From positions 5,976,483-6,040,482 of the forward strand of contig NC_087077.1 of assembly GCF_026151205.1 (NCBI RefSeq): DNA of 64,000 nucleotides, written 5' to 3'. Source of the DNA: Bolinopsis microptera. Its lineage: Eukaryota > Ctenophora > Tentaculata > Lobata > Bolinopsidae. Both the position numbers and the translations under genes were made by a program. This document shows, piece after piece, positions 23,658-63,880 of this stretch (positions within the stretch are counted from its first letter, which is position 1; each line of letters opens with the position of its first letter). The notes beneath the pieces are model-generated. The model was not told the origin of the DNA and searched no databases. It saw nothing but the letters and a program-made list of their open reading frames with translations.

Positions 23658-23796
23658 AACATTGGACGACAAGGAAAATGTTGACACAAACAGCAATGTG
23701 ATAGTTTCTAGTGAAACAACTTTGAACTTGTGGAAGTACATTGTTCCTCCCCATCCTGGCGAGCTTGAAGAGGACAGCTTCATTGTCGATAACATG
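23658..23796 (+). CDS. CEP192: CEP192-like exon (N-terminal)
   Basis: Acceptor TATTTCCAG, donor GTATGC. Enters with the last base of a codon and leaves in phase 0. Encodes [20 protein letters not shown] then a Trp/Pro-containing segment ending VDNM. Confidence 0.75.
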
Positions 23797-26700
23797 GTAT
23801 GCATTCAAGGAATTTTAACATCATTTGGATTAGTTGTTCTTCTTACATGTATAATTATTAAGGGTAGTTGGTAGTCTTATGAATTGAAGGCTCAGTTTAA
23901 CAACCAATGATACATTTTGCAGGCGTATAACCTAGATGGAAGCACACCAAATGATGTAGATCAAAGAGAATTCTCTGAAAAGATGGCTGAAGATCTGGCC
24001 AGCCTAAATATACTGGCTAAGGAATTGAATGTTGAGGCATCTATTACAGAAAATTCAGAATTCCCTCAAAGAATATGCGAACAATTTTCACCTATACCTG
24101 GATACATTGTTACAGAAAATAATGTCATAATGCGAAGACATTCGTCAACAAACTGCCAAAAAATGGTTGCAAATGCAGATAAGGAAGATGCAGATGGTAT
24201 CAGGAAAATGTTAAGTGCACCTCCTTCAATGACTATCATGGATGAACCAAAACAAGCACATAACGACCTGGATGCAGAGGTGGCTGCATTGACCTCAAAA
24301 AATGCTGTCGATTTCTTTGATTACATAGAGGTCGAGGAAGATCTCGTTAATGAATCGTTTTCTAAATACTTTCTTCAAGAGGATATCATAACATCTCAAG
24401 ATATACCCAATATTAACAAGGAAACAGAAGATAAGATTGATCAAATGGCCCTTCAAATGAGCAAGCCTATGGATCAATTGTTGGGATCCGATCGCGATAG
24501 TCCCATTGATAATGTTTTGTTGCAAGGTCATGGTTCAAAAAATGCATATGAATTAGAGTTCGATACTAAAAACAGTGCTCGTTACTCCCTTGGATCTCTG
24601 AACACTGTAACTTATATTGATCCAGAGAATTCTATGACTACTGAAGCTCTCCAAACTCCTGGGCATGTTGACGAAACCGAGTTTGATGTACCTAGTGACG
24701 AGGAGTCATATGATGAAGATGAGGAACTAGAAGACAATATGCCTTCTGAGCTTAAATTGAAAGAACAGATAAAATAGCATTAATGAAGATAACTCGAGTT
24801 CAGAGAAGTTTGATTATGTGTCAAGTGAAGAGGAGTTAGACACTGGCAATGTTAATTTGGAAACTGATTGTGTGTCAAGTGATGAAAACAATTTGAGCAC
24901 AGTGAACTGTGATGACGGAAATATGGCTCCAGATACTGACCATGGTGAAGTTGAGAGACATCCATCATTCAATAATAGTCTTGAAATTATGCACCATCAT
25001 TCGATTCTCGACAGGATACTTAAAGATGACTTTGCCCCTCGAAACAAATTGTCATCTCTCCCAGCTATACCCTAGAGCAACCTTGTGCTGTGGGTATAAC
25101 AAAGAAATTTCCTGTTATGATAGAAAACAAAACTGATCTATGGGTCCAGTGCAGTATATCAGTTGATGAAGTCGGAAAGATGAATGGCTTTAGTTCCCAA
25201 AACCGTCTGATAATTCCCCCCCTTGCAAAGGAGAGTTTGCCCGTATGCCTGTCTGCTAAACAAGACGGTCTGTGTCTGGGGACCGTGGAGGTGACTGTAA
25301 ATTCTGTGATAAGTGGCATGTTACATGAACAACACCATAGCTGCAAAATAACTGCCATTGCTGAGCTACCTGGCCTCAGCATGCTTCCCAAACAAATACA
25401 ATTCAACATCCAAGTAGAAAACAAAGAGGCGTCGTACGAGCTTAAAAATGCTTCAGACTATGAACTGCCTTTGAAAGTTGTGCTTCATTCTGAAGGCCTG
25501 GATGAAGTCTTCTCGCTTTCCGATCCTATGTCAAAGTACCCTACTGCTGTCTTTGCACTTATCCTACCGCCTCACCAGCTATTTGTTGGGCACATCGAGT
25601 TCTGCCCTTACGAACAATACAGCGTTTGTGAAGGTAATTAGTGGGGTTAGTGGGGATAAGTAGGATTAGTGGGGTTAGTGGGATTAGTGGGGTTAGTGGG
25701 ATTAGTGGGGTGAGTGGAATTAGTGGGATTAGTGGGGTTGGTGGAGTTGGTGGGGTTGGTGGGGTTAGTGGGGTTAGTGGGGTTAGTGGGATTAGTGGGG
25801 TTAGTGGGATTAGTGGGGATAAGTAGGATTAGTGGGGTTAGTGGAATTAGTGGGATTAGTGGGGGTTAGTGCGGTAAGTGGGGATAAGTAGGATTAGTGG
25901 GATTAGTGGGATTAGTAGGATTAGTGGGATTAGTGGGATTAGTGGGGTTAGTGGGATTAGTGGGAGTAGTGGGCTTAGTGGGCTTAGTGGGATTAGTGGG
26001 ATTAGTGGGATTAGTGGGATTAGTGGGATTAGTGGGGTTAGTGGGGTTAGTGGGATTAGGATATTGAATTATGCAGCTAAACTGAATGAAAAAGGAAAGT
26101 TATATATATATATAATGTATCATAAAGGTGATATTATGTTACGTAAAAATTAAGGGTGAAATGTGCAATTGCTATCTCGCTGGGTATCAAGTGTTGTATT
26201 ACACACAGCATATTACACAAAATGACTTACATCCCTATTTCATGAACTATACATATATATTATATCATATCATGACTCTCCTCACTTTACAGCCAGTTTG
26301 AGAGTGTACGTGGATAGTCCTAACGGCGCACTGCTAGCAGAGACTGATGTTTTGGGAACAGTTGGTCATTATAAAGTGAGGATACCCACAGACAAACACT
26401 CTCTTTCTTTCCATTCCAGCCCAGGGGACCCACTCACCACTGACATCACCTTAATTAACACAGGTATAAATATTACAATTTTAAGGTTTGAAACTTCAAA
26501 TCTTTCTTCATCATGCCGAGTATGTAACTTGTATGATGAAGACTCATCTCTTATAAACTATACCCTTCATTAACTTAATCGCTCATGGACGACTTAATAG
26601 TTATGTAATCGAAGCTGTGCAGTATGAATTCAGTTTATAAGATGTGTATGTAACGATGTAACTCTGCAGGCAACATGGCCACCACAATTACTCTCGATGT

Positions 26701-29700
26701 GACGCGCCCCTTTTCTGTATCTCCTCCTTTTATTGGCTCCTTGGTTCCGGGAGAGGAGGCTACCTGCCAGGTGAGCACTAGTGGGGTTAGTGGGAGAGGA
26801 GGCTACCTGCCAGGTGAGCAGTAGTGGGGTTAGTGGGAGAGGAGGCTACCTGCCAGGTGAGCACTAGTGGGGTTAGTGGGAGATGAGGCTACCTGCCAGG
26901 TGAGTACTAGTGGGGTTAGTGGGAGAGGAGGCTACCTGCCAGGTGAGTACTAGTGGGGTTAGTGGGAGAGGAGGCTACCTGCCAGGTGAGCACTAGTGGG
27001 GTTAGTGGGAGATGAGGCTACCTGCCAGGTGAGCACTAGTGGGGTTAGTGGGAGAGGAGGCTACCTGCCAGGTGAGCACTAGTGGGGTTAGTGGGAGAGG
27101 AGGCTACCTGCCAGGTGAGCACTAGTGGGGTTAGTGGGAGAGGAGGCTACCTGCCAGGTGAGCACTAGTGGGGTTAGTGGGAGAGGAGGCTACCTGCCAG
27201 GTGAGCACTAGTGGGGTTAGTGGGAGAGGAGGCTACCTGCCAGGTGAGCAGTAGTGGGGTTAGTGGGAGAGGAGGCTACCTGCCAGGTGAGCACTAGTGG
27301 GGTTAGTGGGAGAGGAGGCTACCTGCCAGGTGAGCACTAGTGGGGTTAGTGGGAGAGGAGGCTACCTGCCAGGTGAGCACTAGTGGGGTTAGTGGGAGAG
27401 GAGGCTACCTGCCAGGTGAGCACTAGTGGGGTTAGTGGGAGAGGAGGCTACCTGCCAGGTGAGCACTAGTGGGGTTAGTGGGAGAGGAGGCTACCTGCCA
27501 GGTGAGCACTAGTGAGGTTAGTGGGAGAGGAGGCTACCTGCCAGGTGAGCACTAGTGGGGTTAGTGGGAGAGGAGGCTACCTGCCAGGTGAGCACTAGTG
27601 GGGTTAGTGGGAGAGGAGGCTACCTGCCAGGTGAGCACTAGTGGGGTTAGTGGAAGAGGAGGCTACCTGACAGGTGAGCACTAGTGGGGTTAGTGGGAGA
27701 GGAGGCTACCTGCCAGGTGAGCACTAGTGGGGTTAGTGGGAGAGGAGGCTACCTGCCAGGTGAGCACTAGTGGGGTTAGTGGGAGATGAGGCTACCTGCC
27801 AGGTGAGCTGTAGTGGGGTTAGTGGGAGAGGAGGCTACCTGCCAGGTGAGCACTAGTGGGGTTAGTGGGAGAGGAGGCTACCTGCCAGGTGAGCACTAGT
27901 GGGGTTAGTGGGAGAGGAGGCTACCTGCCAGGTGAGCACTAGTGGGGTTAGTGGGAGAGGAGGCTACCTGCCAGGTGAGCACTAGTGGGGTTAGTGGGAG
28001 AGGAGGCTACCTGCCAGGTGAGCACTAGTGGGGTTAGTGGGAGAGGAGGCTACCTGCCAGGTGAGCACTAGTGGGGTTAGTGGGAGAGGAGGCTACCTGC
28101 CAGGTGAGCACTAGTGGGGTTAGTGGGAGAGGAGGCTACCTGCCAGGTGAGCAGTAGTGGGGTTAGTGGGAGAGGAGGCTACCTGCCAGGTGAGCACTAG
28201 TGAGGTTAGTGGGAGAGTAGGCTACCTGCCAGGTGAGCACTAGTGAGGTTAGTGGGAGAGGAGGCTACCTGCCAGGTGAGCACTAGTGAGGTTAGTGGGA
28301 GAGGAGGCTACCTGCCAGGTGAGCTGTAGTGGGGTTAGTGGGAGAGGAGGCTACCTGCCAGGTGAGCTGTAGTGGGGTTAGTGGGAGAGGAGGCTACCTG
28401 CCAGGTGAGCTGTAGTGGGGTTAGTGGGAGAGGAGGCTACCCGCCAGGTGAGCTGTAGTGGGGTTAATGGGAGAGGAGGCTACCTGCCGGGTGAGCACTA
28501 GTGGGGTTAGTGGGAGAGGAGGCTACCTGCCAGGTGAGCAGTAGTGGGGTTAGTGGGAGAGGAGGCTACCTGCCAGGTGAGCACTAGTGGGGTTAGTGGG
28601 AGAGGAGGCTACCTGCCAGGTGAGCAGTAGTGGGGTTAGTGGGAGAGGAGGCTACCTGCCAGGTGAGCAGTAGTGGGGTTAGTGGGAGAGGAGGCTACGC
28701 CAGGTGAGCACTAGTGGGGTTAGTGGGAGAGGAGGCTACCTGCCAGGTGAGCATTCCGGGAGAGGAGGCTACCTGCCAGGTGAGCACTCTCCACAACACA
28801 ATAAACTCTCGTCACTTATTCTCAGTTTGAGATGTTGGAATAACTACAACATGGGATAACATGGTCACATTTACTACTTTCTTTTTATATTTCTCCTTTT
28901 TCTTTTTTGAGAGAGGCTGGATGGCTCCCCACTGTAACACATCTAAATTGTCAGGTGTCCTATTTCCCAGTGGTAACGGAGCACGTGACTGGGCTGCTCA
29001 CCCTCAGTCTGGAGGCAGATTCTGTTGTTTACCAGGTATCAAGCCTTAAAAAATAATATTTTATTTCTTAGTAATGGACAAATTTTCAACAAAGTGCTTA
29101 AATTTGTGTTTCACTGTGAGCACTAGTTAGTGGGAGGCTACCTGTCAGGTTCCTAAATCCACAGACTGTCTGCATAACTCGGCCAATTTCAGCCTCTTAT
29201 GTTTTGTCGATAACTCGGATAATAAGCTTTTTTTGGAGATCAACTATAATAAATTTTATACAATTTTGGCCACTGAAAATGTTGTGCAAACCAATAAATA
29301 GCTGAAGGCACTTTGCGTCTTGGAAACTTATTAGGACTGTAACTATAAAATGAATATGTGATAAGTGCGCTATAGGAACCGACCTAATATTCGACTGAGT
29401 CCGCTTCCAGCCCGATATATTATGGACACGTTCATTGAAATTTGAGGATATTGGTAAATTTAAAAAATAGCGTTTTCAACGATAGTGGCTTAATTTTAGC
29501 ATCTAATAATCTAGCAAGTTCAGAAGTTTTTATAGTGTGACAATGTTAGCATCTCACTGCTGGCCGAATTTAAGCGATATCTTATCATCTGATAAAGATA
29601 TCATTATGTGACAAAGTTTACCTAGAGGATGAGACGATTATCCTAACCATGGAGGGTTTTTATAGTTTTATAGTGCGACAAATTTTACCTCATCGTGTCA

Positions 29701-32700
29701 TTTAATAGGGCTACTAACAATGAACGTGTGCATATATAATTATACAGTACTTCTCGATTCCTGATTGTTGATTTAGCTATTTAGGAACGTTTATTCAAAA
29801 TGTTTTGCACTACACAACTACAAGGTACCGATCGAAGGACGGAGCACAAAGAACAAATCAAACGTTGCAAATACCACGTGTCCCTATTCGCTGCTGACCA
29901 GTAAAAGTATTGTTAACTTTGGGGGATCTGAGATTGGTTAGTCAAATTAACAGTCTCTACTCTCTTTTACAGAATAGATTCCGCGATCAGTTCAACTTGT
30001 ACAAATAATGAATTCTAGTTTTCATAACACGCTTCGACGATACAACATACCCCAAAAAGATGAATACAGTAACCCCGATTTACCACGGAGTTTGGGGAAA
30101 GGAAACATCAGCGGTAAATCGGATTTCGCGGTAAATCGGGGTTTTGTTTGTTTACATTATGCATGTTAAGCCCTATTTGGGGGAAATGAGATGGCTGCGG
30201 TATATCGAGGTTGCAGTAAATCGGGGCGCGGTAAACACTTATACTATGCACCTTATAAATCTAATTATATAACTACCAGCCTATCATACTAAATTCATAA
30301 GAGACCCACTATGTTGCACACTTACAGTCATGTTATGGAAACATAGAGGTAGCCTAGTTCATAATTATTAAATTAGAATTATTAAACTAATTAAAATTGA
30401 CCAGGCAGACAGAAGGAAGACACTATAGTGCTACAGAACGATTCACCCACTGAGTTAATGTGTCTGGTGCTGAGAGTGATCAGTCCTAGCCGCTCATTCT
30501 ACATCCTCAACGACAACTCCATAACGTTTACACATTTCTCGTTTATTTTTATAATAGTGGATTAGTTGGTATGTTTGTAATATATATTTAAACGTAACTT
30601 TTGAATATTTAACATCACGTACTATCTGATTTGCAGGTTAAGCTGTGATATGGTGTTACCAGCAGGGACCTCTCAGACGCTCAAGTTGGGTTACACACCA
30701 CTACACAGCCAACAGCATGTGGGCGAGTTGCTCGTTAAAACCAAGAAGAATAACCTTTCCTTTAATATTTCTCTATCTGGGCACGGTGGTCTTAGTAAGG
30801 TACAGTCCCTAATTGTTATGATTTTACGTTATGATGCAACCTCAGGTGGTAATCCTAAACTAAATAAACATGATATAACTCTAACTCCTGCAGATAACTA
30901 TGATGCAACCTCAGGTGGTAATCCTAAACTAACTAAACATGATATAACTGTAACTCCTGCAGATAACTATGATGTAACCTCAGGTGGTAATCCTAAACTA
31001 ACTAAACATGATATAACTCTAACTCCTGCAGATAACTATGATGTAACCTCAGGTGTCAATCCTAAACTAACTAAACATGATATAACTCTAACTCCTGCAG
31101 ATAACTATGATGTAACCTCAGGTGGTAATCCTAAACTAACTAAACATGATATAACTCTAACTCCTGCAGATAACTATGATGTAACCTCAGGTGGTAATCC
31201 TAAACTAACTAAACATGATATAACTCTAACTCCTGTAGATAACTATGATGTAACCTCAGGTGGTAATCCTAAACTAACTAAACATGATATAACTCTAACT
31301 CCTGCAGATAACTATGATGTAACCTCAGGTGGTAATCCTAAACTAACTAAACATGATATAACTCTAACTCCTGCAGATAACTATGATGTAACCTCAGGTG
31401 TCAATCCTAAACTAACTAAACATGATATAACTCTAACTCCTGCAGATAACTATGATTTAACCTCAGGTGGTAATCCTAAACGCACAACAGAGCTCCTCCC
31501 GTCTCTGGGTAGACATGGGAGACATCTGCCCAAACACTCGCAACACCGCGCGTATCACCCTTAACAACACCGGCTCCAGGGCAGCCTTCGTATCAGGAGT
31601 TCTAGAAGACGAGGAGGGGTACCCCTTACCCTCCACTCTGGCCTGGATCAACCCCACCACTTTTGTGATCCCAGATAACACTACACGTGAATTGTACGTG
31701 ATCTACGAGGCAGGGGCTGATAAAGAGGCGGGAGTGAGCAGGATAGCTCTCCTCAAGTTGTACTGTGGTGACGAGATCTCCAGGAGGAGGTTCTGCAACG
31801 TTCTCAACATTCTTGACAGGTATTTTACTTTTACAAAATTAAGTTACCTAAGGTTTATCGGGAGGGGGGGTGGACTGATTTGTTAACAAGGGTCGAATGT
31901 GTCCATCATAAATCATAATAATGCTCTATGCTTCAGGCCGGTGGAAGATCAGGACCTCCCGTTTGACCCTGCTGTGGAGTACCTGACACCAGGTGAAATG
32001 AAGAGAGAGGGTGAGCTGAAAGTACCTCATCTCATGCAGGCCGATATGGCCTTGGAGAGAAAGCTCTTCGGAAGTGGACTATATCAACTCTTTATCAGGT
32101 TAGCTAATTTGGTTACGCCTGGGGGCAAAATGGAAGAATTTACCTGCTTACAAGTATATCCATCTGTTCCTACATCCCTCCTGTTCCTACATCCCTCCTG
32201 TTCCTACATCCCTCCTGTTCCTACATCCCTCCTGTTCCTACATCTTTCCTGTACCTACATCCCTCCCGTTCCTACATCCCTCCTGTTCCTACATATCTCC
32301 TGTTCCTACATCCCTCCTGTTCCTACATCCCTCCTGTTCCTACATTCCTCCTGTTGCTACATCCCGCCTATTCCTACATCACTCCTGTTCCTACATCCCT
32401 CCCGTTCCTACATCCCTCCTGTTTTTACATCCCTCATGTTCCTACATCCTCCTGTTCCTACATCTTTCCTGTACCTACATCCCTCCCGTTCCTACATCCC
32501 TCCTGTTCCTACATATCTCCTGTTCCTACATCCCGCCCTCCTGTTCCTACATCCCTCCTGTTCCTACATCCCTCCTGTTGCTACATCCCTCCTATTCCTA
32601 CATCACTCCTGTTCCTACATCCCTCCCGTTCCTACATCCCTCCTGTTTTTACATCCCTCATGTTCCTACATCCCTCCTGTACCTACATCCTTCCCGTTCC

Positions 32701-36906: not shown

Positions 36907-37400
36907 ATTTGACACTGAGCTATCGACATCGGGATGGTTCTCTTTAAATATTATAATATCTTGTATTACTAAAATATTATGATGCTGAACTAATATTTGA
37001 ACACTGAGGCTAATTGCGCTGTGCACTTACGTTCAAGTAATGTTTAATAATGGTAGTAGTAACAATAAAGCAATAATGGTGTGAAGTGCTCGATGAAAAG
37101 TTGGCCAAATTCTGACGCGAAAGCACACAGCGTTTTAGGTAGAAATTATAACAAAATAATTTTATTGAATATTTTGAAATTTGTACGAAGTTTACATAAC
37201 TTAGTTGTGTTATTATATATTTGTTGTTATATACGTAATAAGTATCGCATGTGTGAATATCACTAAGCATAGCCAGTTCTATGTACATTTTATATTATGT
37301 TCTGGCAGGGAATGTTTTTAACGCACTTTTAATCTGCATTTTTATGTGACGGAATGATTTTATACTTTATAGTTATAGCAACCACAATATTTAATTATTA

Positions 37401-37780
37401 TCCAGGGTGTCCCAACAAATAACAACCAAGTTTTTGTTAATCACCTCAGATTTAATCTAACGACTAATACACTACTAACAACAGTACACTACTAACAGCA
37501 GTACACTACTAACAGCAGTACACTACTAACAGCAGTACACTACTAACAGCAGTACACTACTAACAGCAGAACACTACTAACAGCAGTACATAAAAATGAG
37601 AGATATCAGTAAATTTGTAAAATAGCGTCACAAGGCTGTCACACCACAGAATAAACTTTAAGTCTGATTTTTTTTCGGACTCCGGAGGTTACACGCTATA
37701 GCCTCTGTAAATTATAAATGGCGTTCTTAAACCGTTAAAAAAATTTAATCTCTTGGTTGCTTATTTTGGACACACTGTAT
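37401..37780. mobile_element. Tc1/mariner-type MITE containing a 17-bp repeat
   Basis: The left end CAGGGTGTCCCAACAAATAA and the right end TTATTTTGGACACACTGTAT are inverse copies extending through AACCAAG. They are flanked by TA-rich sequence. Inside, about seven copies of CACTACTAACAGCAGTA (37470-37590). No ORF. Confidence 0.6.
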
Positions 37781-38770
37781 TTGTGTATTTATGAAGCATT
37801 TTTACCATATTATTTGAGATTTATATATTGTTTAACATAGTAGTATAGTATTTAATGGCTCCACTACCTACTTATATAATAATATGTTGTAATTAATAAG
37901 ATGTGCTATAGTTTTAAATTACACTCGTGTCCAAATATATCGTGGTGTTTCCTTGCAAGGGGGGGGGGGGGGGGGGGGGGGGGGGGTCGTAGATTCCTCT
38001 ACAGGGTCATCGAATAGTTCGACCGCCCTTGTTTTACAATACACTATATTGTAGATGTTCTGAAGGAGTAACCTAAGAATTAAGATTCATGATCTTTTGG
38101 CACAGGCACCCCTCCTCATTTAACCCTCAATCAAGTTTCCTATCATTCGGCTGAAGTGATCGCGAATTTGGTACTAAACGTTTTGCCTTTCCAAGCTAAA
38201 AACCATCATGTACCTAAAAATATTTCCGAAATTTATTAGTTTTCATGTTGCATATAGCATGTAGCATGTATGTTTCTTCCAGTGTTCATGTTACCCTGAT
38301 CATTATGAGCCGAATTTTTTTTTCAATAACGACAACGTTGTAAATATTAATTTTGGATTCCCTAAACGATATTTTTTACCGCATCAAAAATATCAATCAC
38401 AACCAAAGTTATGAATAGTCATACCGTGAGCGTAAATGTGAGCTAGTCATGACGTAACATAAAGCATGAAAACGCGCATTGACAATCGGTGCTTGCTCAC
38501 TCACATGCAATTTTTTGAGGTTGCTACGCAACGTCGCAGTTTACCTTCGATAAAATAACAAGGTTTCAACTCCATTTGCGAGCTGAAATTGGTCAGAACA
38601 AAGGGTCGGTTTTTGGTCAATTTTCAGTGTTTTTTGTCCCCGTTGCCGGGGAGATTTCGTCAAGTTTAAAATTTAATATAGAAATATATTCAGCTTATAG
38701 AGTATTAGGAATATTTATTTAAATGAGTGAAATTATGCCTAATTTATTCCATTGTTTTACATAACAATTT
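37781..38770. other. CEP192-arylsulfatase intergenic region
   Basis: Contains a 26-base G tract at about 37961-37986, a copy of the dispersed repeat at 38160-38260, and an ACCCTGATCATTATGAGCC segment (38289 on) that resembles the hAT target. The arylsulfatase promoter and any 5' UTR exon should lie here, but I cannot place them. Confidence 0.4.
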
Positions 38771-38777
38771 TGCAGGG

Positions 38778-42242: not shown

Positions 42243-42347
42243 GGATGAGTCCAGCAATAGCTACTGAATGATGAACTAAGATAATGGAAACGATTCAAAT
42301 TTAGCTGTTCAGTTCAGCTCACCATTTATTTTCTTGATGGAGGATTG

Positions 42348-46520: not shown

Positions 46521-46583
46521 ATGTCAGGTAGAAACAGCAACATGGCAAGTCACACTGATGTGGGTTCACAGATGTCCTCGCCG
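46521..46583 (+). CDS. TMEM104: TMEM104-like exon 1
   Basis: ATG at 46521, 21 codons (MSGRNSNMASHTDVGSQMSS then P), donor CCG|GTAAGC, phase 0. Short hydrophilic N-terminus, as in human TMEM104. An intronic 9-mer array starts at once after the donor. Confidence 0.75.
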
Positions 46584-52500: not shown

Positions 52501-55500
52501 AGCAGCAAACTTTAGGCTAGAAACTTTATTGAATTGAAATAATCATTCCACGTAACAACGTCTTCTTCAGTTCTCAAATTATTTGTTATATAGTAGTGTT
52601 GAAAGTATTAAAACTGGTATAATATTGTTAAGGTAAAAGGTCAAACGTATTTGTGAAGCATCAAACAAGTACTATTTGACACTACTTGAAAATCTAATTT
52701 CAGTTGGTGTGGTGTTGTTTTATGTGGCAGTTATAATATACCTCTACGGGGATCTCGCTATTTACACAGTCGCAGTGCCTAAATCCCTTGCTAATGTCAG
52801 CTGGTGAGTACAGTTGCAGTGCCTAAATCCCTTGCTAATGTCAGCTGGTGAGTACAGTTGCAGTGCCTAAATATATTGCTAATGTCAGCTGGTGAGTACA
52901 GTTGCAGTGCCTAAATATCTTACTAATGTCAGCTGGTGAGTACAGTTGCAGTGCCTAAATCCCTTGCTAATGTCAGCTGGTGAGTACAGTTGCAGTGCCT
53001 AAATCCCTTGCTAATGTCAGCTGGTGAGTACAGTTGCAGTGCCTAAATCCCTTGCTAATGTCAGCTGGTGAGTACAGTTGCAGTGCCTAAATATCTTACT
53101 AATGTCAGCTGGTGAGTACCGTTGCAGTGCTTAAATATCTTGCTAATGTCAGCTGGTGAGTACAGTTGCAGTGCCTAAATCCCTTGCTAATGTCAGCTGG
53201 TGAGTACAGTTGCAGTGCTTAAATATCTTCCTAATGTCAGCTGGTGAGTACAGTTGCAGTGCCTAAATCCCTTGCTAATGTCAGCTGGTGAGTACAGTTG
53301 CAGTGCCTAAATATATTGCTAATGTCAGCTGGTGAGTACAGTTGCAGTGCCTAAATCCCTTGCTAATGTCAGCTGGTGAGTACAGTTGCAGTGCCTAAAT
53401 ATCTTGCTAATGTCAGCTGGTGAGTACAGTTGCAGTGCCTAAATATCTTGCTTATGTCAGCTGGTGAGTACAGTTGCAGTGCCTAAATCCCTTGCTAATG
53501 TCAGCTGGTGAGTACAGTTGCAGTGCTTAAATCCCTTGCTAATGTCAGCTGGTGAGTACAGTTGCAGTGCTTAAATATCTTCCTAATGTCAGCTGGTGAG
53601 TACAGTTGCAGTGCCTAAATCCCTTGCTAATGTCAGCTGGTGAGTACAGTTGCAGTGCCTAAATATCTTGCTAATGTCAGCTGGTGAGTACAGTTGCAGT
53701 GCCTAAATCCCTTGCTAATGTCAGCTGGTGAGTACAGTTGCAGTGCCTAAATCCCTTGCTAATGTCAGCTGGTGAGTACAGTTGCAGTGCCTAAATATAT
53801 TGCTAATGTCAGCTGGTGAGTACAGTTGCAGTGCTTAAATATCTTCCTAATGTCAGCTGGTGAGTACAGTTGCAGTGCCTAAATATCTTGCTAATGTCAG
53901 CTGGTGAGTACAGTTGCAGTGCCTAAATATCTTGCTAATGTCAGCTGGTGAGTACAGTTGCAGTGCTTAAATATCTTCCTAATGTCAGCTGGTGAGTACA
54001 GTTGCAGTGCCTAAATCCCTTGCTAATGTCAGCTGGTGAGTACAGTTGCAGTGCCTAAATCCCTTGCTAATGTCAGCTGGTGAGTACAGTTGCAGTGCCT
54101 AAATATCTTGCTAATGTCAGCTGGTGAGTACAGTTGCAGTGCTTAAATATCTTCCTAATGTCAGCTGGTGAGTACAGTTGCAGTGCCTAAATCCCTTGCT
54201 ATGTCAGCTGGTGAGTACAGTTGCAGTGCCTAAATCCCTTGCTAATGTCAGCTGGTGAGTACAGTTGCAGTGCCTAAATCCCTTGCTAATGTCAGCTGGT
54301 GAGTACAGTTGCAGTGCCTAAATATCTTACTAATGTCAGCTGGTGAGTACAGTTGCAGTGCCTAAATCCCTTGCTAATGTCAGCTGGTGAGTACAGTTGC
54401 AGTGCTTAAATATCTTCCTAATGTCAGCTGGTGAGTACAGTTGCAGTGCCTAAATCCCTTGCTAATGTCAGCTGGTGAGTACAGTTGCAGTGCCTAAATC
54501 CCTTGCTAATGTCAGCTGGTGAGTACAGTTGCAGTGCCTAAATCCCTTGCTAATGTCAGCTGGTGAGTACAGTTGCAGTGCCTAAATATCTTACTAATGT
54601 CAGCTGGTGAGTACAGTTGCAGTGCCTAAATCCCTTGCTAATGTCAGCTGGTGAGTACAGTTGCAGTGCCTAAATCCCTTGCTAATGTCAGCTGGTGAGT
54701 ACAGTTGCAGTGCCTAAATCCCTTGCTAATGTCAGCTGGTGAGTACAGTTGCAGTGCCTAAATCCCTTGCTAATGTCAGCTGGTGAGTACAGTTGCAGTG
54801 CCTAAATCCCTTGCTAATGTCAGCTGGTGAGTACAGTTGCAGTGCCTAAATCCCTTGCTAATGTCAGCTGGTGAGTACAGTTGCAGTGCCTAAATCCCTT
54901 GCTAATGTCAGCTGGTGAGTACAGTTGCAGTGCCTAAATCCCTTGCTAATGTCAGCTGGTGAGTACCGTTGCAGTGCCTAAATCCCTTGCTAATGTCAGC
55001 TGGTGAGTACAGTTGCAGTGCCTAAATCCCTTGCTAATGTCAGCTGGTGAGTACAGTTGCAGTGCCTAAATCCCTTGCTAATGTCAGCTGGTGAGTACAG
55101 TTGCAGTGCCTAAATATATTGCTAATGTCAGCTGGTGAGTACAGTTGCAGTGCCTAAATATCTTACTAATGTCAGCTGGTGAGTACAGTTGCAGTGCCTA
55201 AATATCTTCCTAATGTCAGCTGGTGAGTACAGTTGCAGTGCCTAAATCCCTTGCTAATGTCAGCTGGTGAGTACAGTTGCAGTGCCTAAATCCCTTGCTA
55301 ATGTCAGCTGGTGAGTACAGTTGCAGTGCCTAAATCCCTTGCTAATGTCAGCTGGTGAGTACAGTTGCAGTGCCTAAATCCCTTGCTAATGTCAGCTGGT
55401 GAGTACAGTTGCAGTGCCTAAATATCTTGCTAATGTCAGCTGGTGAGTACAGTTGCAGTGCCTAAATATCTTCCTAATGTCAGCTGGTGATTACAGTTGC

Positions 55501-58500
55501 AGTGCCTAAATATCTTGCTTATGTCAGCTGGTGAGTACAGTTGCAGTGCCTAAATATATTGCTAATGTCAGCTGGTGAGTACAGTTGCAGTGCCTAAATA
55601 TCTTCCTAATGTCAGCTGGTGAGTACAGTTGCAGTGCCTAAATATAGCGCTAATGTCAGCTGGTGAGTACAGTTGCAGTGCCTAAATCCCTTGCTAATGT
55701 CAGCTGGTGAGTACAGTTGCAGTGCCTAAATATATTGCTAATGTCAGCTGGTGAGTACAGTTGCAGTGCCTAAATATCTTCCTAATGTCAGCTGGTGAGT
55801 ACAGTTGCAGTGCCTAAATATAGCGCTAATGTCAGCTGGTGAGTACAGTTGCAGTGCCTAAATATCTTGCTAATGTCAGCTGGTGAGTACAGTTGCAGTG
55901 CCTAAATCCCTTGCTAATGTCAGCTGGTGAGTACCGTTGCAGTGCCTAAATCCCTTGCTAATGTCAGCTGGTGAGTACAGTTGCAGTGCCTCAATCCCTT
56001 GCTAATGTCAGCTGGTGAGTACAGTTGCAGTGCCTAAATCCCTTGCTAATGTCAGCTGGTGAGTACAGTTGCAGTGCCTAAATCCCTTGCTAATGTCAGC
56101 TGGTGAGTACAGTTGCAGTGCCTAAATATATTGCTAATGTCAGCTGGTGAGTACAGTTGCAGTGCCTAAATATCTTCCTAATGTCAGCTGGTGAGTACAG
56201 TTGCAGTGCCTAAATCCCTTGCTAATGTCAGCTGGTGAGTACAGTTGCAGTGCCTAAATCCCTTGCTAATGTCAGCTGGTGAGTACAGTTGCAGTGCCTC
56301 AATCCCTTGCTAATGTCAGCTGGTGAGTACAGTTGCAGTGCCTAAATCCCTTGCTAATGTCAGCTGGTGAGTACCGTTGCAGTGCCTAAATCCCTTGCTA
56401 ATGTCAGCTGGTGAGTACCGTTGCAGTGCCTAAATCCCTTGCTAATGTCAGCTGGTGAGTACAGTTGCAGTGCCTCAATCCCTTGCTAATGTCAGCTGGT
56501 GAGTACAGTTGCAGTGCCTAAATCCCTTGCTAATGTCAGCTGGTGAGTACAGTTGCAGTGCCTAAATCCCTTGCTAATGTCAGCTGGTGAGTACAGTTGC
56601 AGTGCCTCAATCCCTTGCTAATGTCAGCTGGTGAGTACCGTTGCAGTGCCTAAATCCCTTGCTAATGTCAGCTGGTGAGTACAGTTGCAGTGCCTCAATC
56701 CCTTGCTAATGTCAGCTGGTGAGTACAGTTGCAGTGCCTAAATCCCTTGCTAATGTCAGCTGGTGAGTACAGTTGCAGTGCCTCAATCCCTTGCTAATGT
56801 CAGCTGGTGAGTACCGTTGCAGTGCCTAAATCCCTTGCTAATGTCAGCTGGTGAGTACAGTTGCAGTGCCTAAATATATTGCTAATGTCAGCTGGTGAGT
56901 ACAGTTGCAGTGCCTAAATATCTTACTAATGTCAGCTGGTGAGTACAGTTGCAGTGCCTAAATCCCTTGCTAATGTCAGCTGGTGAGTACAGTTGCAGTG
57001 CCTCAATCCCTTGCTAATGTCAGCTGGTGAGTACAGTTGCAGTGCCTAAATCCCTTGCTAATGTCAGCTGGTGAGTACAGTTGCAGTGCCTAAATCCCTT
57101 GCTAATGTCAGCTGGTGAGTACAGTTGCAGTGCCTCAATCCCTTGCTAATGTCAGCTGGTGAGTACAGTTGCAGTGCCTAAATCCCTTGCTAATGTCAGC
57201 TGGTGAGTACAGTTGCAGTGCCTCAATCCCTTGCTAATGTCAGCTGGTGAGTACAGTTGCAGTGCCTAAATCCCTTGCTAATGTCAGCTGGTGAGTACAG
57301 TTGCAGTGCCTAAATCCCTTGCTAATGTCAGCTGGTGAGTACCGTTGCAGTGCCTAAATCCCTTGCTAATGTCAGCTGGTGAGTACAGTTGCAGTGCCTA
57401 AATATCTTCCTAATGTCAGCTGGTGAGTACAGTTGCAGTGCCTAAATCCCTTGCTAATGTCAGCTGGTGAGTACAGTTGCAGTGCCTAAATCCCTTCCTA
57501 ATGTCAGCTGGTGAGTACAGTTGCAGTGCCTAAATCCCTTGCTAATGTCAGCTGGTGAGTACAGTTGCAGTGCCTAAATCCCTTGCTAATGTCAGCTGGT
57601 GAGTACAGTTGCAGTGCCTAAATCCCTTGCTAATGTCAGCTGGTGAGTACAGTTGCAGTGCCTAAATCCCTTGCTAATGTCAGCTGGTGAGTACAGTTGC
57701 AGTGCCTAAATATCTTCCTAATGTCAGCTGGTGAGTACAGTTGCAGTGCCTAAATCCCTTGCTAATGTCAGCTGGTGAGTACAGTTGCAGTGCCTAAATA
57801 TATTGCTAATGTCAGCTGGTGAGTACAGTTGCAGTGCCTAAATATCTTCCTAATGTCAGCTGGTGAGTACAGTTGCAGTGCCTAAATATATTGCTAATGT
57901 CAGCTGGTGAGTACAGTTGCAGTGCCTAAATCCCTTGCTAATGTCAGCTGGTGAGTACAGTTGCAGTGCCTAAATATCTTGCTAATTTCAGCTGGTGAGT
58001 ACAGTTGCAGTGCCTAAATATCTTCCTAATGTCAGCTGGTGAGTACAGTTGCAGTGCCTAAATATATTGCTAATGTCAGCTGGTGAGTACAGTTGCAGTG
58101 CCTAAATATATTGCTAATGTCAGCTGGTGAGTACAGTTGCAGTGCCTAAATATCTTCCTAATGTCAGCTGGTGAGTACAGTTGCAGTGCCTAAATATCTT
58201 GCTAATGTCAGCTGGTGAGTACAGTTGCAGTGCCTAAATATCTTGCTAATGTCAGCTGGTGAGTACAGTTGCAGTGCCTAAATATATTGCTAATGTCAGC
58301 TGGTGAGTACAGTTGCAGTGCCTAAATATCTTCCTAATGTCAGCTAGTGAGTACAGTTGCAGTGCCTAAATCCCTTGCTAATGTCAGCTGATGAATACAG
58401 TTGCAGTGCCTAAATATATTGCTAATGTCAGCTGGTGAGTACAGTTGCAGTGCCTAAATATCTTCCTAATGTCAGCTGGTGAGTACAGTTGCAGTGCCTA

Positions 58501-61500
58501 AATCCCTTGCTAATGTCAGCTGGTGAGTACAGTTGCAGTGCCTAAATCCCTTGCTAATGTCAGCTGGTGAGTACAGTTGCAGTGCCTAAATATCTTCCTA
58601 ATGTCAGCTGGTGAGTACAGTTGCAGTGCCTAAATCCTTTGCTAATGTCAGCTGGTGAGTACAGTTGCAGTGCCTAAATATATTGCTAATGTCAGCTGGT
58701 GAGTACAGTTGCAGTGCCTAAATATCTTACTAATGTCAGCTGGTGAGTACAGTTGCAGTGCCTAAATCCCTTGCTAATGTCAGCTGGTGAGTACAGTTGC
58801 AGTGCCTAAATCCCTTGCTAATGTCAGCTGGTGAGTACAGTTGCAGTGCCTAAATCCCTTGCTAATGTCAGCTGGTGAGTACCGTTGCAGTGCCTAAATC
58901 CCTTGCTAATGTCAGCTGGTGAGTACAGTTGCAGTGCCTAAATATCTTCCTAATGTCAGCTGGTGAGTACAGTTGCAGTGCCTAAATCCCTTGCTAATGT
59001 CAGCTGGTGAGTACCGTTGCAGTGCCTAAATATATTGCTAATGTCAGCTGGTGAGTACAGTTGCAGTGCCTAAATATCTTACTAATGTCAGCTGGTGAGT
59101 ACAGTTGCAGTGCCTAAATATCTTCCTAATGTCAGCTGGTGAGTACAGTTGCAGTGCCTAAATATATTGCTAATGTCAGCTGGTGAGTACAGTTGCAGTG
59201 CCTAAATATATTGCTAATGTCAGCTGGTGAGTACAGTTGCAGTGCCTAAATATATTGCTAATGTCAGCTGGTGAGTACAGTTGCAGTGCCTAAATATCTT
59301 CCTAATGTCAGCTGGTGAGTACAGTTGCAGTGCCTAAATATATTGCTAATGTCAGCTGGTGAGTACAGTTGCAGTGCCTAAATATATTGCTAATGTCAGC
59401 TGGTGAGTACAGTTGCAGTGCCTAAATATCTTGCTAATGTCAGCTGGTGAGTACAGTTGCAGTGCCTAAATCCCTTGCTAATGTCAGCTGGTGAGTACAG
59501 TTGCAGTGCCTAAATCCCTTGCTAATGTCAGCTGGTGAGTACCGTTGCAGTGCCTAAATCCCTTGCTAATGTCAGCTGGTGAGTACAGTTGCAGTGCCTA
59601 AATATCTTGCTTATGTCAGCTGGTGAGTACAGTTGCAGTGCTTAAATATCTTCCTAATGTCAGCTGGTGAGTACAGTTGCAGTGCCTAAATATAGCGCTA
59701 ATGTCAGCTGGTGAGTGCGGCTTCGTTTAAACCAAAGAAAGTCTAGATCGAACATTTTAGTAGTAAAATGTAGTGTGAATATTACCAATTTGTCTCTATT
59801 TATCTAAACCGTGTTGTTTGCAGTATACCAGATCTCCGTGATGAACACAATGTTACGCTATGTTGGAACGGAGTCTCCCACGACGCAGCCTACAGAATAT
59901 TTGTTGTAAGTTAGTGCTCCCTACTAAACATTGCAACGTTGTAAGTTAGTGCTCCCTACTTAACACTGCAACGTTGTAAGTTAGTGCTGCCTACTAAACA
60001 CTGCAACGTTGTAAGTTAGTGCTCCCTACTAAACACTGCAACGTTGTAAGTTAGTGCTCCCTACTAAACACTGCAACGTTGTAAGTTAGTGCTCCCTACT
60101 AAACATTGCAACGTTTTAAGTTAGTGCTCCCTACTTAACACTGCAACGTTGTAAGTTAGTGCTCCCTACTAAACATTGCAACGTTGTAAGTTAGTGCTCC
60201 CTACTTAACACTGCAACGTTGTAAGTTAGTGCTCCCTACTAAACATTGCAACGTTGTAAGTTAGTGCTCCCTACTAAACTCTGCAACGTTGTAAGTTAGT
60301 GCTCCCTACTAAACACAGCAACGTTGTAAGTTAGTGCTCCCTACTAAACACTGCAACGTTGTAAGTTAGTGCTCCCTACTAAATGGAAAAATTAAGGCAC
60401 TAATGCCAAAAAGGCTACTGTTTTGTTTACCAATATCCTCAAATTCAAATAGACATGTTCATATTATAGTAGTGGTAAAAGTATAACAAATAGTTGTACA
60501 AATATGCTATTCCGATTTAATATGCCTTCAGTACTTTTTTATTTACGTTGATTTTAATTTCAGCTTATCTATGTCTTGTGTATAGGCCCCTTTGTGTTTT
60601 TCAACGCTCAAAAAACGACACTTCTGCAGATTTTTAGCTCTATCCTCAGACACACATGTAAGTAAATAGCCTACAAATACTAATACTATCAAAGCCCAGA
60701 TAGCAATTAATTATTTGCTTTAAAGCTTTAACACATCTATTAATTTTGATTAATTTGACTTATTTTGAACGCAAATAACCGCAGCATTCTTCATTATGGT
60801 AGTTATCGCCATTGACCGCATCATGAAACACAAACACGGTGTCCCAAAACCACAAGATGTAAAACCAGTCATCTTCGACAAAATACCAGATTTCATAGGT
60901 TTGTCATTTCTCATGTTGGATATTTTAAGAAATTGAAAGTCTTTTCAAATATAACGCACACAATGCGATTTAGACAATTAAACGACCTCTAAATATCTTT
61001 TATGTACAGGGGGGGGGGGGGGGGGGCCAAAAGTCAGTGTGCAAACGTTGGGTCTTTTACATCCGCCGTGTTTTATATTTAAGATTTTTTGCTTTGCAGA
61101 TGGAATTATGTACTTACTTGTTCGAGGATTCCGTGGCAAAAATTTTAAAATTCGGATATTTTAGACCACGCCCATTCAATATTAAAACGTCTTTATTGTT
61201 CTCTCTGAACAGGCTGGACAGTGGACACCTATTGTTTTCAGAGACGGTAGATTATTAAGTGTTGCATCTGATCTGAAAAAATGAGGCAACACAGATTAGA
61301 AATGATGAAGTTATCAAACTTTTGTGTATCTCGTTACTAAAGTTGACTGGGTTATTATGTGACACCGTGACACGACACCTTAATTGGGCACCCTCAACAA
61401 TTCCCGTAATGTTTAACGGGGTGGTTAACGGGGTCACCTAATCACGTGATTAGGTAAACCAATCACTTTGTGGATATTGAAATAGATTTCAAATTAATCT

Positions 61501-63880
61501 GACTGCATCTAACTCAATTTAAATTATATTCACTTACGAAGGAAATTATTAACTGCTTTTGGTGAACTATCTGAACAAAATACAATTGAACAATGTGTTA
61601 CTTTACAGGAGTGAGTGTCTACTGTTTCATGTGCCAGCACTCTCTTCCTTCCTTCATAACTCCCATGAAGAACCAGAACAGAGCCACTCCCGTCCTCCTC
61701 TCTGCCTTGGCTGCCTGTCTCGGTATCTACGCTGTCGTCTGCTATACGGCTACTTTCTCCTTTGAAAACCTTGAGGTTTGCAAGGAGTACAACAAATTTA
61801 AATACTGTGAAAAATCGTTTTTCAAAACATCTTTGCCAGCAATTCCCATCGTATCAGTGTTTATTTAATTTGATCGGTGTTTATTTAATTTGATATCCGA
61901 GTCCAGCATCACTTTCAATTCAACAAATTTGCAAATACGTTATAGACTTACAGATTTACAGTGGTTTGCGTTCTCAATTTTTTCCCGATCCATGACTCAA
62001 GTGCCGTAGGCACAAAAGAGTCAACAAGGGTTAGCGAACGAGGTTTTTTTTTGTATATTAGGATGCAATGAAACTATCGGACTACGATGAATGGGGACTT
62101 GCCACCCCATGGCAATATTAAAATATATCGACTTTGTGACATCGTTTCCTGTTAATATAAAACTCCGTTACAAACTGAACTGGGATCTGGTAATACTACA
62201 CCTCAAGTCAATAAAATATGATAGGGTGATGTATTTAGACTCATGCAAATGTTTATGTAATCTATTCTAATAATCTCGAAATGTCCGTATGTGTGTAATT
62301 CCAGAGCGGCTCAATCAAGAAAACGGTTAAAGTTATGGGACTGGTTTTTTTCGGTATAGTTTAGACAAAACTCTGACGAAGTCAATAAGCAAAGCTTTTC
62401 TAAATCAACCGGTGGTAAGTGGTTTAATTGATGGTTTTGTACCCCAAATGTGGTAATATTACTGAAGTGTCTCACTTTTTTTTCACACTCTCTCTCTCTA
62501 ACACTATCCCTCCCCATTTACAGCTCCCCTAATTCTCTAATTACAGCTCTGGTATATAATTAGGTAATTTGGCATTAGAGCCAGAAGCCGCAAGTTTGCC
62601 TATTAAGTATTACTATTGGATACATGTTGTGCGCTCACTAAATACGCGAATTTTGGCAAAAATTGTTGCTTCAAATCAATTTTATTAACATTAACAATAA
62701 AACTTCGCTAATTTCCTTAATATAAGTACTTCGGTGAACTGTCGAACTCTGTTCAAATCAGTCACACACTAATTTCCCCTGCATACAAGTACTGCACCCC
62801 CGTCGGCATTTCGAATTCTATACGGGGGAGGGGTCTGGCAAATGCTGACGTCATTAGGGGTCGTTCACATATTATCAGAGATAAAATAATAAAAATTACC
62901 ATTTTTCACCACAACTGTGAAATTATGCCAGTGTCTGAGAATACACGCTGAGGATATATGGTAGCTTGCGTCTGTAAGGGAGCGCAATTTGATCGCTGGC
63001 CCGTTTAGTTTCTATGGTATTGGTAATTATCTTAGAACATTTATTTTGCGCGTTATTTTGGATTAATTGGCTGTCGGTCACGGTGCGCGCAGATATGTAA
63101 ACATTTTGACCTTTTAATTTCGAGTTAGTATAACATAAAGTATCATGCACAGATCCGTTTCAGCTTGCTTAAGCAATATTAGCATAGGCCTAGGCACTAG
63201 GGTTACATAGAATTAGAAATAAAAAATTGTTTTCATAATCAACATGGCCATGGGATATAATATTAATATGAGACGCCATCATGGATCGGGAAATTGAGCG
63301 GCCATCCACTTAAGAAATACGGCCGCATTTCTTGTTTTACAGTTACATTGGAACGAGAGGCTATTTGATCATGATGAGTTGACTTTGCCGATATCATGAT
63401 TATTTTGGTGGCAAGAAATAAAGAGACTTTCAGAGGAATCCAACGTAAATGTTCACCCTTTTCAGGACGTTTACACGCTGAATTTTGCAAACTTTGGCGT
63501 GATACCTATCCGATATTTTTTGGAGCTGTACCCGGTGTTCTGTCTGACCGCCAGCTACCCGATCATCGGTATCACACTCAGGAACAATCTCAAAACTCTT
63601 TTTTCCAAAGAAGAATATCCCTGGCTCGTTGACAGGGTGAGTTCATAAGCCTTGCAAAATCGAAGACTAATTTATTAACAAAATTGAAACACTTTACGGT
63701 TTTTTAGTTCTTACACGAATCCCTCAGGTGGTATTTCCACTCCTGACGATAATCCCACCGACTATTATTGGTATGTGTACGGAGAATGTGGAGTTCCTGG
63801 TCTCGTACACGGGTGCGTTTAGTGGTGCGGCCATTCAGTACATCATACCTGCCTGCTTCGTCCTCCTCGGCAGGATTAAG
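46521..63880 (+). CDS. TMEM104: TMEM104-like gene span (3' end outside the window)
   Basis: TMEM104 is a multi-pass membrane protein of the amino-acid transporter fold (SLC38/APC-related); its substrate is not known to me. Thirteen exons, all phase-compatible, give 432 residues here. Landmarks in order: FVFNLLLGAGALALPAAFAD AGWLV (first transmembrane helix), MAEIFFNK, VGVVLFYVAVIIYLYGDLAI, YCFMCQHSLPSFITPM, DVYTLNFANF, and YTGAFSGAAIQYIIPACFVL. Each matches the human protein in the same order. The final transmembrane helices are missing because the window ends. Introns are packed with tandem repeats and TIR elements, including a 6.9-kb minisatellite. Confidence 0.92.
46590..46858. repeat. 9-bp CTAGTGAAC / CTAGTGATC array at the exon 1 donor
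   Basis: About 29 units beginning within ten bases of the donor GTAAGC. The 9-mer period leaves both strands open, so the Leu-Val-Asn and Arg-Phe-Thr frames are artefacts. Confidence 0.93.
46857..47580 (-). mobile_element. Poly-G TIR element, copy 1
   Basis: Starts with a G run followed by TCAAAAGTCAGTGCACATAC. Its far end (TTGGCGACAGAATCCTCGAA, inverse of the left interior of copy 2) lies just upstream of exon 2. It is in opposite orientation to copy 2 (48015-48818). Confidence 0.75.
47625..47746 (+). CDS. TMEM104: TMEM104-like exon 2 (first membrane helix)
   Basis: Acceptor TTGTTTTTCAG, donor AG|GTTTGT, phase 0 in, 2 out. Encodes MAFIFVFNLLLGAGALALPA then AFADAGWLVSTVLLVILCFA. The GAGALALPAAF motif is the family's first transmembrane helix. 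Confidence 0.93.
47764..47900 (+). repeat. Duplicated acceptor junction before TMEM104-like exon 3
   Basis: The block GGATGGCTATCTCTTTAATC then TTCTCAG|TTTCGTTTCAGCCTCGTTCA recurs about 59 bp later as the real acceptor and exon start, and the exon itself contains GGGATGGCTATCGC. So exon sequence, pyrimidine tract and acceptor have been duplicated in tandem. The first copy has a variant TTTCGTTTC and a GAATGG change. Confidence 0.88.
47855..47978 (+). CDS. TMEM104: TMEM104-like exon 3
   Basis: Acceptor ATCTTTTCAG, donor AAT|GTGAGT. Encodes SFVSASFMCEGMAIANVLQN then VACPKKNDNVTETEQLLAGS. The MCEGMAIAN part corresponds to VMEAMAAAN in human TMEM104. Confidence 0.9.
48015..48818 (+). mobile_element. 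Poly-G TIR element, copy 2 (about 800 bp)
   Basis: Ends are inverse: CAGGGGG(G)n CAAAAGTTAGTGCACATAA and TGTACACTGACTTTTGCC(C)n. The interior is inverse to 46857-47580. No ORF. Flanks are TA-rich, suggesting a TA-target element, but the exact TSD is unclear. Confidence 0.8.
49145..49390. repeat. GTAGTAACT array just before TMEM104-like exon 4
   Basis: About 26 units of GTAACTATA / GTAACTGTA 9-mers, ending about 20 bp before the exon 4 acceptor. Confidence 0.93.
49412..49459 (+). CDS. TMEM104: TMEM104-like exon 4 (48 nt)
   Basis: Phase 0 at both ends; acceptor CTCTGGATCAG (weak tract), donor TCG|GTAAGA. Encodes GLQLLKYEFSDYESDS. It fits the acidic cytoplasmic loop (human STASDSDV). The alternative acceptor TATATAG at 49384 would give an immediate stop. 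Confidence 0.65.
49735..50195. repeat. Dispersed repeat with internal insertion (partner 45420-45760)
   Basis: Same family as 45420-45760. Carries an extra segment (about 49775-49905) whose end (TCTCAAATTATTTGTTATAT through GAAAGTATTAAAACT) recurs at 52569-52615. Confidence 0.75.
50196..51153. other. TMEM104-like intron, no further gene
   Basis: Contains a G tract (about 50454-50473) and otherwise unremarkable AT-rich sequence. Confidence 0.4.
51154..51180 (+). CDS. TMEM104: Possible TMEM104-like 27-nt microexon
   Basis: CATTACACAG|GGGGCTCCAG through GGATCA|GTAAAA, phase 0 on both sides, encoding GAPGTASGS. It would lie in the disordered loop. The donor is weak, so it may be optional or false. 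Confidence 0.4.
51770..51800 (+). CDS. TMEM104: TMEM104-like exon (31 nt)
   Basis: Acceptor TTTTTTCAG, donor G|GTAGGT. Encodes AEMAEIFFNK, equivalent to VEMGQMASMFFNK in human TMEM104; phase fits the next exon. Confidence 0.85.
51801..52703. other. TMEM104-like intron
   Basis: AT-rich. 52569-52615 repeats the segment also found at 49855-49900. No other feature recognised. Confidence 0.4.
52704..52803 (+). CDS. TMEM104: TMEM104-like exon; its 3' edge seeds the 44-bp array
   Basis: Acceptor TAATTTCAG, donor CTG|GTGAGT. Encodes VGVVLFYVAVIIYLYGDLAI then YTVAVPKSLANVS, an almost exact family match (human YLYGDLAIYAAAVP). The last 38 nt, starting at ACAGTCGCAGTGCC, are copied in each downstream repeat unit. 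Confidence 0.93.
52804..59716 (+). repeat. 44-bp minisatellite copying exon end plus splice donor, about 157 units
   Basis: Unit: GTGAGTACAGTTGCAGTGCC then TAAATCCCTTGCTAATGTCA then GCTG, that is, the donor GTGAGT plus 38 exon bases. First donor at 52804, last at 59711; one 43-bp unit near 54190. The main variable window is after CCTAAAT: CCCTTGC, ATCTTGC, ATATTGC, ATCTTCC, ATAGCGC, and the CTCAATCCC form. 6.9 kb, the largest feature in the window. Any downstream donor would extend the exon through an in-frame TGA (TGG TGA at the first junction). Confidence 0.98.
59824..59905 (+). CDS. TMEM104: TMEM104-like exon
   Basis: Acceptor TTGTTTGCAG, donor GTT|GTAAGT. Joins the previous exon as a Cys codon and encodes IPDLRDEHNVTLCWNGVSHD then AAYRIFV. 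CW..V..DAYRIY is the matching human landmark. N-linked site NVT is in the predicted lumenal loop. Confidence 0.88.
59906..60383 (+). repeat. 35-bp minisatellite carrying a splice donor, about 13.6 units
   Basis: Unit GTAAGTTAGTGCTCCCTACT then AAACACTGCAACGTT. Starts exactly at the donor. Every unit keeps GTT|GTAAGT, but only these three exon bases are shared. Variants: ACTTAACAC, AAACATTG. Confidence 0.96.
60564..60657 (+). CDS. TMEM104: TMEM104-like exon
   Basis: Acceptor TTTAATTTCAG, donor T|GTAAGT. Encodes LIYVLCIGPFVFFNAQKTTL then LQIFSSILRHT, matching human LLLGPFTFFDVQKTKYLQIL. Confidence 0.9.
60785..60898 (+). CDS. TMEM104: TMEM104-like exon
   Basis: Acceptor ATAACCGCAG, donor G|GTTTGT. 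Encodes SFFIMVVIAIDRIMKHKHGV through FDKIPDFI: a membrane helix followed by a basic loop. Confidence 0.85.
61009..61445 (+). mobile_element. Poly-G TIR element, copy 3 (3' truncated)
   Basis: TACAGGGGG(G)n CCAAAAGTCAGTGTGCAAAC then GGGTCTTTTACATCCGCCGTG, parallel to copy 2. The right poly-C end is not seen. Confidence 0.75.
61609..61775 (+). CDS. TMEM104: TMEM104-like exon with the CQHSLPS motif
   Basis: Acceptor TTACTTTACAG, donor GAG|GTTTGC. Encodes GVSVYCFMCQHSLPSFITPM through CYTATFSFENLE. Human has GVCVYSFMCQHSLPSLITPV here. Confidence 0.94.
61776..63465. other. TMEM104-like intron with dispersed repeats
   Basis: Includes copies related to 40620-40745 (62055-62165), 3228-3400 (62295-62470) and 41145-41180 (62910-62950), and a lone AGGGGTCGTTCACATATTA end at 62856. 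Confidence 0.55.
63466..63636 (+). CDS. TMEM104: TMEM104-like exon
   Basis: Acceptor CCCTTTTCAG, donor AGG|GTGAGT, 57 codons, phase 0. Encodes DVYTLNFANFGVIPIRYFLE, FCLTASYPIIGITLRNNLKT and EEYPWLVDR; human MYTLNFARCDVV...FPIIAVTLRNNWKTLF. Confidence 0.94.
63728..63880 (+). CDS. TMEM104: TMEM104-like exon (last in window)
   Basis: Acceptor ATCCCTCAG, donor AAG|GTAACC, 51 codons, phase 0. Encodes VVFPLLTIIPPTIIGMCTEN, VEFLVSYTGAFSGAAIQYII and PACFVLLGRIK. The remaining C-terminal helices must lie beyond 64000. Confidence 0.93.

Follow-up and report, generated by a model that had tools for sequence, protein, structure and literature searches.

The window analysed here, a 64,000-nucleotide stretch of Bolinopsis microptera DNA (contig NC_087077.1), contains two intron-rich genes with tandem arrays. 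A Pfam scan of eight open reading frames (ORFs) gave matches that include Cep192 domains, a sulfatase, a FYVE protein and retroelement-like proteins. Junctions were taken from the exact spliced alignment of the window to two B. microptera proteins, P0241 (CEP192-like) and P0121 (TMEM104-like isoform X2), and all statements on splicing are read from these protein records and refer to predicted splicing. The spliced window sequence reproduced 995 of the 995 amino acids of P0241 on 12 exons with GT...AG introns, and P0121 was placed on 13 exons as far as the window end, so that 23 introns were fixed by the two proteins together. The two genes lie 10 kb apart, and each has several arrays at its junctions.

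25117..36903, plus strand: CEP192-like gene, 12 coding exons as covered by P0241, with Pfam Cep192 domains
46521..63880, plus strand: TMEM104 gene, 13 coding exons in the window from the P0121 alignment, continuing past the window end

Upstream of the P0241 start (24700-25060), an apparently coding frame seems shifted between 24777 and 25030; an intron, an error or a truncated gene model are the alternatives. The start of TMEM104 exon 6 (51769-51786) is a perfect 9-bp duplication that gives AEMAEI and is also present in the Mnemiopsis protein. Elsewhere in the window, a LINE-like element occupies 16234-23086 on the minus strand: its ORF1 (22114-20315) has a 2OG-Fe(II) oxygenase domain (PF13532, E 1.9e-20) and a weak GDSL match, and its ORF2 (19839-16234, also minus) has PHD, endonuclease and reverse transcriptase matches. 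Just upstream of these ORFs lies a 255-bp repeat of 2.9 copies (22351-23086), which perhaps represents 5′ promoter monomers of the element. A 17-bp array (TACACTACTAACAGCAG) at 37468-37590, between the CEP192 stop and the sulfatase gene, resembles a branch point plus AG.

Arrays were identified with Tandem Repeats Finder (TRF) at a score of at least 50, which returned 35 rows in the window, including 14 arrays in or at introns of the CEP192-like and TMEM104 genes. The arrays discussed below are listed here, as found by TRF unless stated otherwise.

25637..26059, plus strand: 9-bp array (ATTAGTGGG) that begins 3 bases into the first P0241 intron (donor after 25633)
26749..28753, plus strand: 43-bp array of 46.7 copies that spans donor 26770 and starts 22 bases inside the exon
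30830..31481, plus strand: 69-bp array of 9.4 copies that spans acceptor 31467; the unit is 54 intron and 15 exon bases
32164..32978, plus strand: 17-bp array that starts 65 bp into the intron behind donor 32098, touches no junction and resumes at 34154-34245 past an inserted element
34560..35261, plus strand: donor 34562 with near copies, then 18-bp and 6-bp arrays (34672-35261), from TRF and a copy search
46592..46858, plus strand: 9-bp array (CTAGTGAAC) that begins 8 bases into TMEM104 intron 1 (donor after 46583)
47767..47894, plus strand: 56-bp duplication of 2.3 copies that spans acceptor 47855; the unit is 16 intron and 40 exon bases
49171..49379, plus strand: 9-bp array (TAGTAACTG) in the middle of intron 47979-50749, away from used junctions
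52766..59716, plus strand: 44-bp array of 158 copies that spans donor 52803 and starts 38 bases inside the exon; the unit is 38 exon and 6 intron bases
59903..60383, plus strand: 35-bp array of 13.7 copies that starts at donor 59905; the unit is 3 exon and 32 intron bases

All five donors beside which the initial annotation had placed array starts (after 25633, 26770, 46583, 52803 and 59905) are used; the arrays at 25637 and 46592 start 3 and 8 bp from their donors, and those at 26749, 52766 and 59903 span theirs. Two acceptors were correctly named as well: 31467, said to lie at an array end, is used in P0241 and lies inside the 69-bp array, and 47855, said to be duplicated, is used in P0121, with exon start 47799 as the decoy acceptor within the duplication. 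Exon-edge sequence had been attributed to three arrays (43, 44 and 69 bp), a count that rises to five with the 56-bp and 35-bp units, the latter by 3 bases. The acceptor proposed at 49412, also at an array end, is not supported: P0121 passes from 47978 to 50750, and the nearest used junction is 1192 bp from the 49171-49379 array. A TMEM104 model with an exon at 49412 was dropped, as the P0121 alignment puts two other exons in its place and agrees with the model elsewhere. The 48 bases at 49412-49459 have splice-like edges and an open frame (GLQLLKYEFSDYESDS) and are unused by TMEM104 isoform X2; they are possibly a cassette exon of another TMEM104 isoform.

The 43-bp unit is composite. It consists of 22 exon bases, 9 bases of the intron start and 12 bases matching the array at 25637, and after these intron-1-like bases it returns to the exon at a shared GGGA. 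With the intron-1 array it shares the 17-mer TAGTGGGGTTAGTGGGA, the sole pair with at least 11 common bases among 78 pairs of 13 arrays, and a 17-base match was found in 0 of 20000 Markov-shuffled units. At the far end of the 43-bp array the intron-1-like insert is absent, and a plain 33-base duplication of donor 26770 is followed by unique intron; the 33-mer carrying this donor has two full instances, at 26745 and 28754, the second offset into the last two copies. Identity between copies of the 43-bp array declines with distance, being 0.971 at lag 1 and 0.922 at lag 40. This arrangement suggests that template switching and a separate duplication took place at the same donor. In the 44-bp array, copy identity is nearly flat with distance (0.958 at lag 1 and 0.953 at lag 120), and GTGAGT is kept in 156 of the 158 copies; variation is mostly confined to a few mid-unit columns, and most other columns are as invariant as the donor bases.

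Several further features of the arrays were observed. Two copies of donor 34562 (AAG/GTTAGGGACCTT), each with one mismatch, stand at 34628 and 34666, at the base of the 18/6-bp array; the initial annotation does not mention this case. A TAGT core is common to the three 9-bp arrays (25637, 46592 and 49171). No stop interrupts the 69-bp array in the reading frame of the exon before it (30605-31564, a 319-aa stop-to-stop ORF), so that the protein would gain about nine repeats of 23 residues before a stop if this intron were retained. The element inserted within the 17-bp array of CEP192 intron 32099-34399 (32978-34153) has perfect 14-bp terminal inverted repeats and contains, at 34021-34105, an inverted repeat whose 41-bp arms match perfectly.

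An array was counted as junction-touching if a used splice site lies inside it or no more than 10 bp from its edge. Because no junctions were established for them, the gene with the FYVE domain and the single-exon sulfatase gene were left out of the placement statistics. For a merged set of 11 arrays, 34154 was joined to 32164 and 34576 to 34672, and 33845, which lies within the inserted element, was dropped. Junctions are touched by 7 of the 11 merged or 14 unmerged arrays (25637, 26749, 30830, 46592, 47767, 52766 and 59903), in five cases at a donor; the remaining merged arrays, 32164, 34672, 49171 and 61853, lie off junctions. With the arrays collapsed, the 23 introns amount to 12,188 bases, in which a founder unit was placed uniformly and could overhang the exon by one unit. 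Under this null, 1.46 of the 11 arrays are expected at junctions (observed 7, p = 9e-5), or 1.82 of the 14 (observed 7, p = 7.6e-4). When each array was confined to its own collapsed intron, the expectation rose to 3.93 of 11 (p = 0.0066) and 4.17 of 14 (p = 0.021), a harsher null, as collapsing leaves three of the seven introns in question with 20, 30 and 107 bases. The earlier claim of a placement far from random therefore stands for the large arrays in the window, but the effect shrinks once the shortness of the collapsed introns is allowed for.

A k-mer test independent of TRF, which asked whether the 16- or 20-mer at a junction is repeated nearby, gave p = 0.15, 0.023, 0.20, 0.23, 0.38, 0.12, 0.034, 0.0047 and 0.0017 in nine settings; four are below 0.05, and significance was reached only when several copies or close copies were demanded. 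Among short repeats (score 30-49) in both genes, 2 of 23 touch a junction, and one of these is wholly exonic, compared with 7 of 11 large arrays (Fisher p = 0.0017). By this contrast, it is the large arrays that are found at junctions and not the small duplications, which lends no support to a birth tied to the junction. The excess of arrays at junctions is moderate, and it comes from a single window that was picked for showing the pattern.

The protein records also indicate which copy of each site is used. By exact protein match, the exon-proximal site (the first donor or the last acceptor) is used in all five boundary-spanning arrays, and P0241 and P0121 match the window with every array copy except the exonic one removed as intron. 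Each of the 22 decoy sites tested led to a premature stop (five donors in the 44-bp array, three in the 35-bp array and four in the 43-bp array, nine acceptors in the 69-bp array and one in the 56-bp duplication), and the extra copies are thus harmless only if the exon-proximal site wins. The acceptors used with the three donor-spanning arrays lie 107-201 bases past the array (exon starts 28955, 59824 and 60564), so these introns look ordinary, with arrays grown inside them. Locally duplicated 16-mers make up 15 of 2922 in exon interiors, 7 of 47 across junctions, a count that includes donor 26463, whose only copy is 2.6 kb off and outside the gene model, and 1099 of 11636 in intron interiors outside the later copies of arrays. 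The junction rate is near the intron rate, so junctions behave like intron in this respect. These counts are as expected if duplications within exons were purged and junction-crossing ones kept, and together with the decoy results they fit the earlier suggestion that selection tolerates arrays at such sites.

Arrays of this kind have a precedent in amphioxus that is absent from the initial annotation. The available parts of the reports on amphioxus "mirages" describe them as minisatellite-like tandem duplications of intron/exon boundaries (PMC3087553, PMC3902484). According to one of these, they occur at 5′ and 3′ boundaries, the copies at their edges are not homogenised and regular splicing is reportedly undisturbed; units measure 10-72 bp in Adh3 and about 150-160 bp in the globins, and the globin BflGb6 has 6 and 3 units in its two haplotypes (PMC3087553). 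The other describes PGBD5 repeats that lie directly against the 5′ splice site and lists TnC and Adh as additional examples (PMC3902484). The B. microptera arrays resemble the mirages of Adh3, globin, TnC and PGBD5 in that they duplicate 5′ and 3′ boundaries with units of tens of bases. Five of them have units spanning the exon-intron boundary (26749, 30830, 47767, 52766 and 59903, the last by 3 bases), with unit lengths of 35, 43, 44, 56 and 69 bp, at donors 26770, 52803 and 59905 and acceptors 31467 and 47855, whereas the arrays at 25637 and 46592 merely abut the donor. In the 44-bp array, ACAGTCGCAGTG is present in the exonic first copy alone, in line with the reported exclusion of mirage cluster edges from homogenisation (PMC3087553). 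Unlike the amphioxus cases in that text, those described here belong to the phylum Ctenophora and reach 158 copies, against 6 and 3 in BflGb6; there are also several cases in each of two genes, and one unit is chimaeric with the array of another intron.

Other known systems are less similar. Intronic minisatellites in general are likewise short-unit tandem arrays with homogenised copies, but a splice site within or beside them is no requirement, and among the 11 B. microptera arrays, too, 4 touch none. Intron gain under the AGGT model, as outlined in the accessible portion of its source, also involves tandem duplication of a segment bearing a splice site, but there exon sequence becomes a new intron, whereas in B. 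microptera existing introns seem to have been enlarged, with the partner site outside the array (PMC3443670). For ctenophores, the part of the Hormiphora genome report that was available gives TRF repeats across 13% of the genome and does not mention splice junctions (PMC8527503), and no splice-site minisatellite or repeat-bearing boundary from a ctenophore was among the matches listed in a search of open-licence literature. As far as this search goes, the arrays are of a known kind, the mirage, in a new phylum and with large copy numbers.

The initial annotation had proposed that repeat birth is tied to the splice sites. In such a process, an R-loop, a paused polymerase or U1-bound nascent RNA would provoke breakage or template switching immediately past the donor. 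The excess of junction-touching arrays, which holds both globally and within their own introns, points in this direction, as do the five of seven that sit at donors and the two different duplications at donor 26770. A weak hint of the same comes from unit edges that fall at about +3 to +9 relative to a donor: the starts of the 25637 and 46592 arrays, the right end of the 44-bp unit at +6 and that of the 43-bp unit at about +7 to +9, the last two lying immediately beyond the donor hexamer. However, a donor must remain intact to about +6, which makes nearer edges impossible anyway, although it does not demand edges that near. Regions prone to R-loops would be expected to have a G-rich non-template strand, and strong G skew was found in only 2 of the 7 junction arrays; the GC skews of the seven (+0.97, +0.48, -0.25, +0.02, +0.09, +0.08 and -0.17) reveal no common R-loop signature. 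The sub-threshold short repeats, of which only 2 of 23 are at junctions, and the k-mer test, non-significant in five of nine settings, also weigh against a junction-tied birth. Birth by R-loops or nascent RNA is thus not established, and we regard a junction-tied origin as rather unlikely. In its broadest form, it would make splice junctions, and donors most of all, mutational hotspots at which minisatellites are born in animals, with seeded copies invisible to the mRNA, introns growing from their ends, and the amphioxus and ctenophore arrays produced by one old general process, a picture that we likewise consider doubtful. Templating by spliced RNA, or by cDNA copied back into the gene, shares only the junction association as support; the units pass from exon directly into intron, as in unspliced sequence, and 0 of 23 spliced exon-exon 16-mers sought in the window were present, which makes this route extremely improbable.

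Two further explanations concern the origin of the introns and the retention of the arrays. If a tandem genomic duplication of an exon segment with AGGT had given rise to the introns, the arrays would be the remains of that event. The CAG/GTGAGC in the 43-bp unit would suit such an origin, and intron gain from mirages is proposed by the amphioxus authors in the available text (PMC3087553), but the acceptors that pair with the three donor-spanning arrays lie beyond them. Copying of one AGGT therefore did not supply both splice sites of these introns, and we consider this origin very unlikely. Alternatively, the arrays may have been retained for a function, for example because many decoy donors slow or regulate splicing. 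The preservation of GTGAGT throughout most of the 44-bp array would agree with this, but donor conservation is not special there, given the equal invariance of most columns of the unit, and the predicted RNA fold of TMEM104 exon 7 with the first 44-bp copies is weaker than that of shuffles (z = +3.1); a retained function is accordingly hard to credit.

We consider it probable that the arrays are mirage-type minisatellites, formed by tandem duplication and template switching at the DNA level and tolerated at junctions as the copies become intron. What is observed is the tandem repetition, in up to 158 copies, of DNA segments that cross a splice site or touch one. The founding copies may have arisen by template switching during DNA replication or break repair, and would later have been enlarged and homogenised by unequal exchange or slippage. 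The clearest candidate for a template switch is the 43-bp unit, which would have joined the donor of CEP192 exon 3 to a piece resembling the intron-1 array and gone back via the shared GGGA; it is on this one chimaeric unit that the proposed switching is based. Such duplications would survive at junctions and in introns and not inside exons, as the 16-mer counts partly indicate, because the spliceosome would pair an exon with the adjacent site, so that extra donors or acceptors leave as intron. The excess at donors may be partly a survival filter, partly a consequence of short ancestral introns and possibly a local hotspot, and repeat birth would need no causal tie to splicing. Against this reading, a filter acting by itself does not account for the excess that persists in the own-intron null with either array set, and two 9-bp arrays (25637 and 46592) abut a donor while containing no exon sequence.

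The presence of mirages in both ctenophores and amphioxus would, if upheld, make them no cephalochordate oddity but a recurrent route of intron growth and splice-site multiplication. A natural test case for the choice of sites by the spliceosome is offered by an intron in which the donor recurs intact about 155 more times. Any annotated long-read genome can show whether array edges lie at junctions more often than intron length and selection would lead one to expect.
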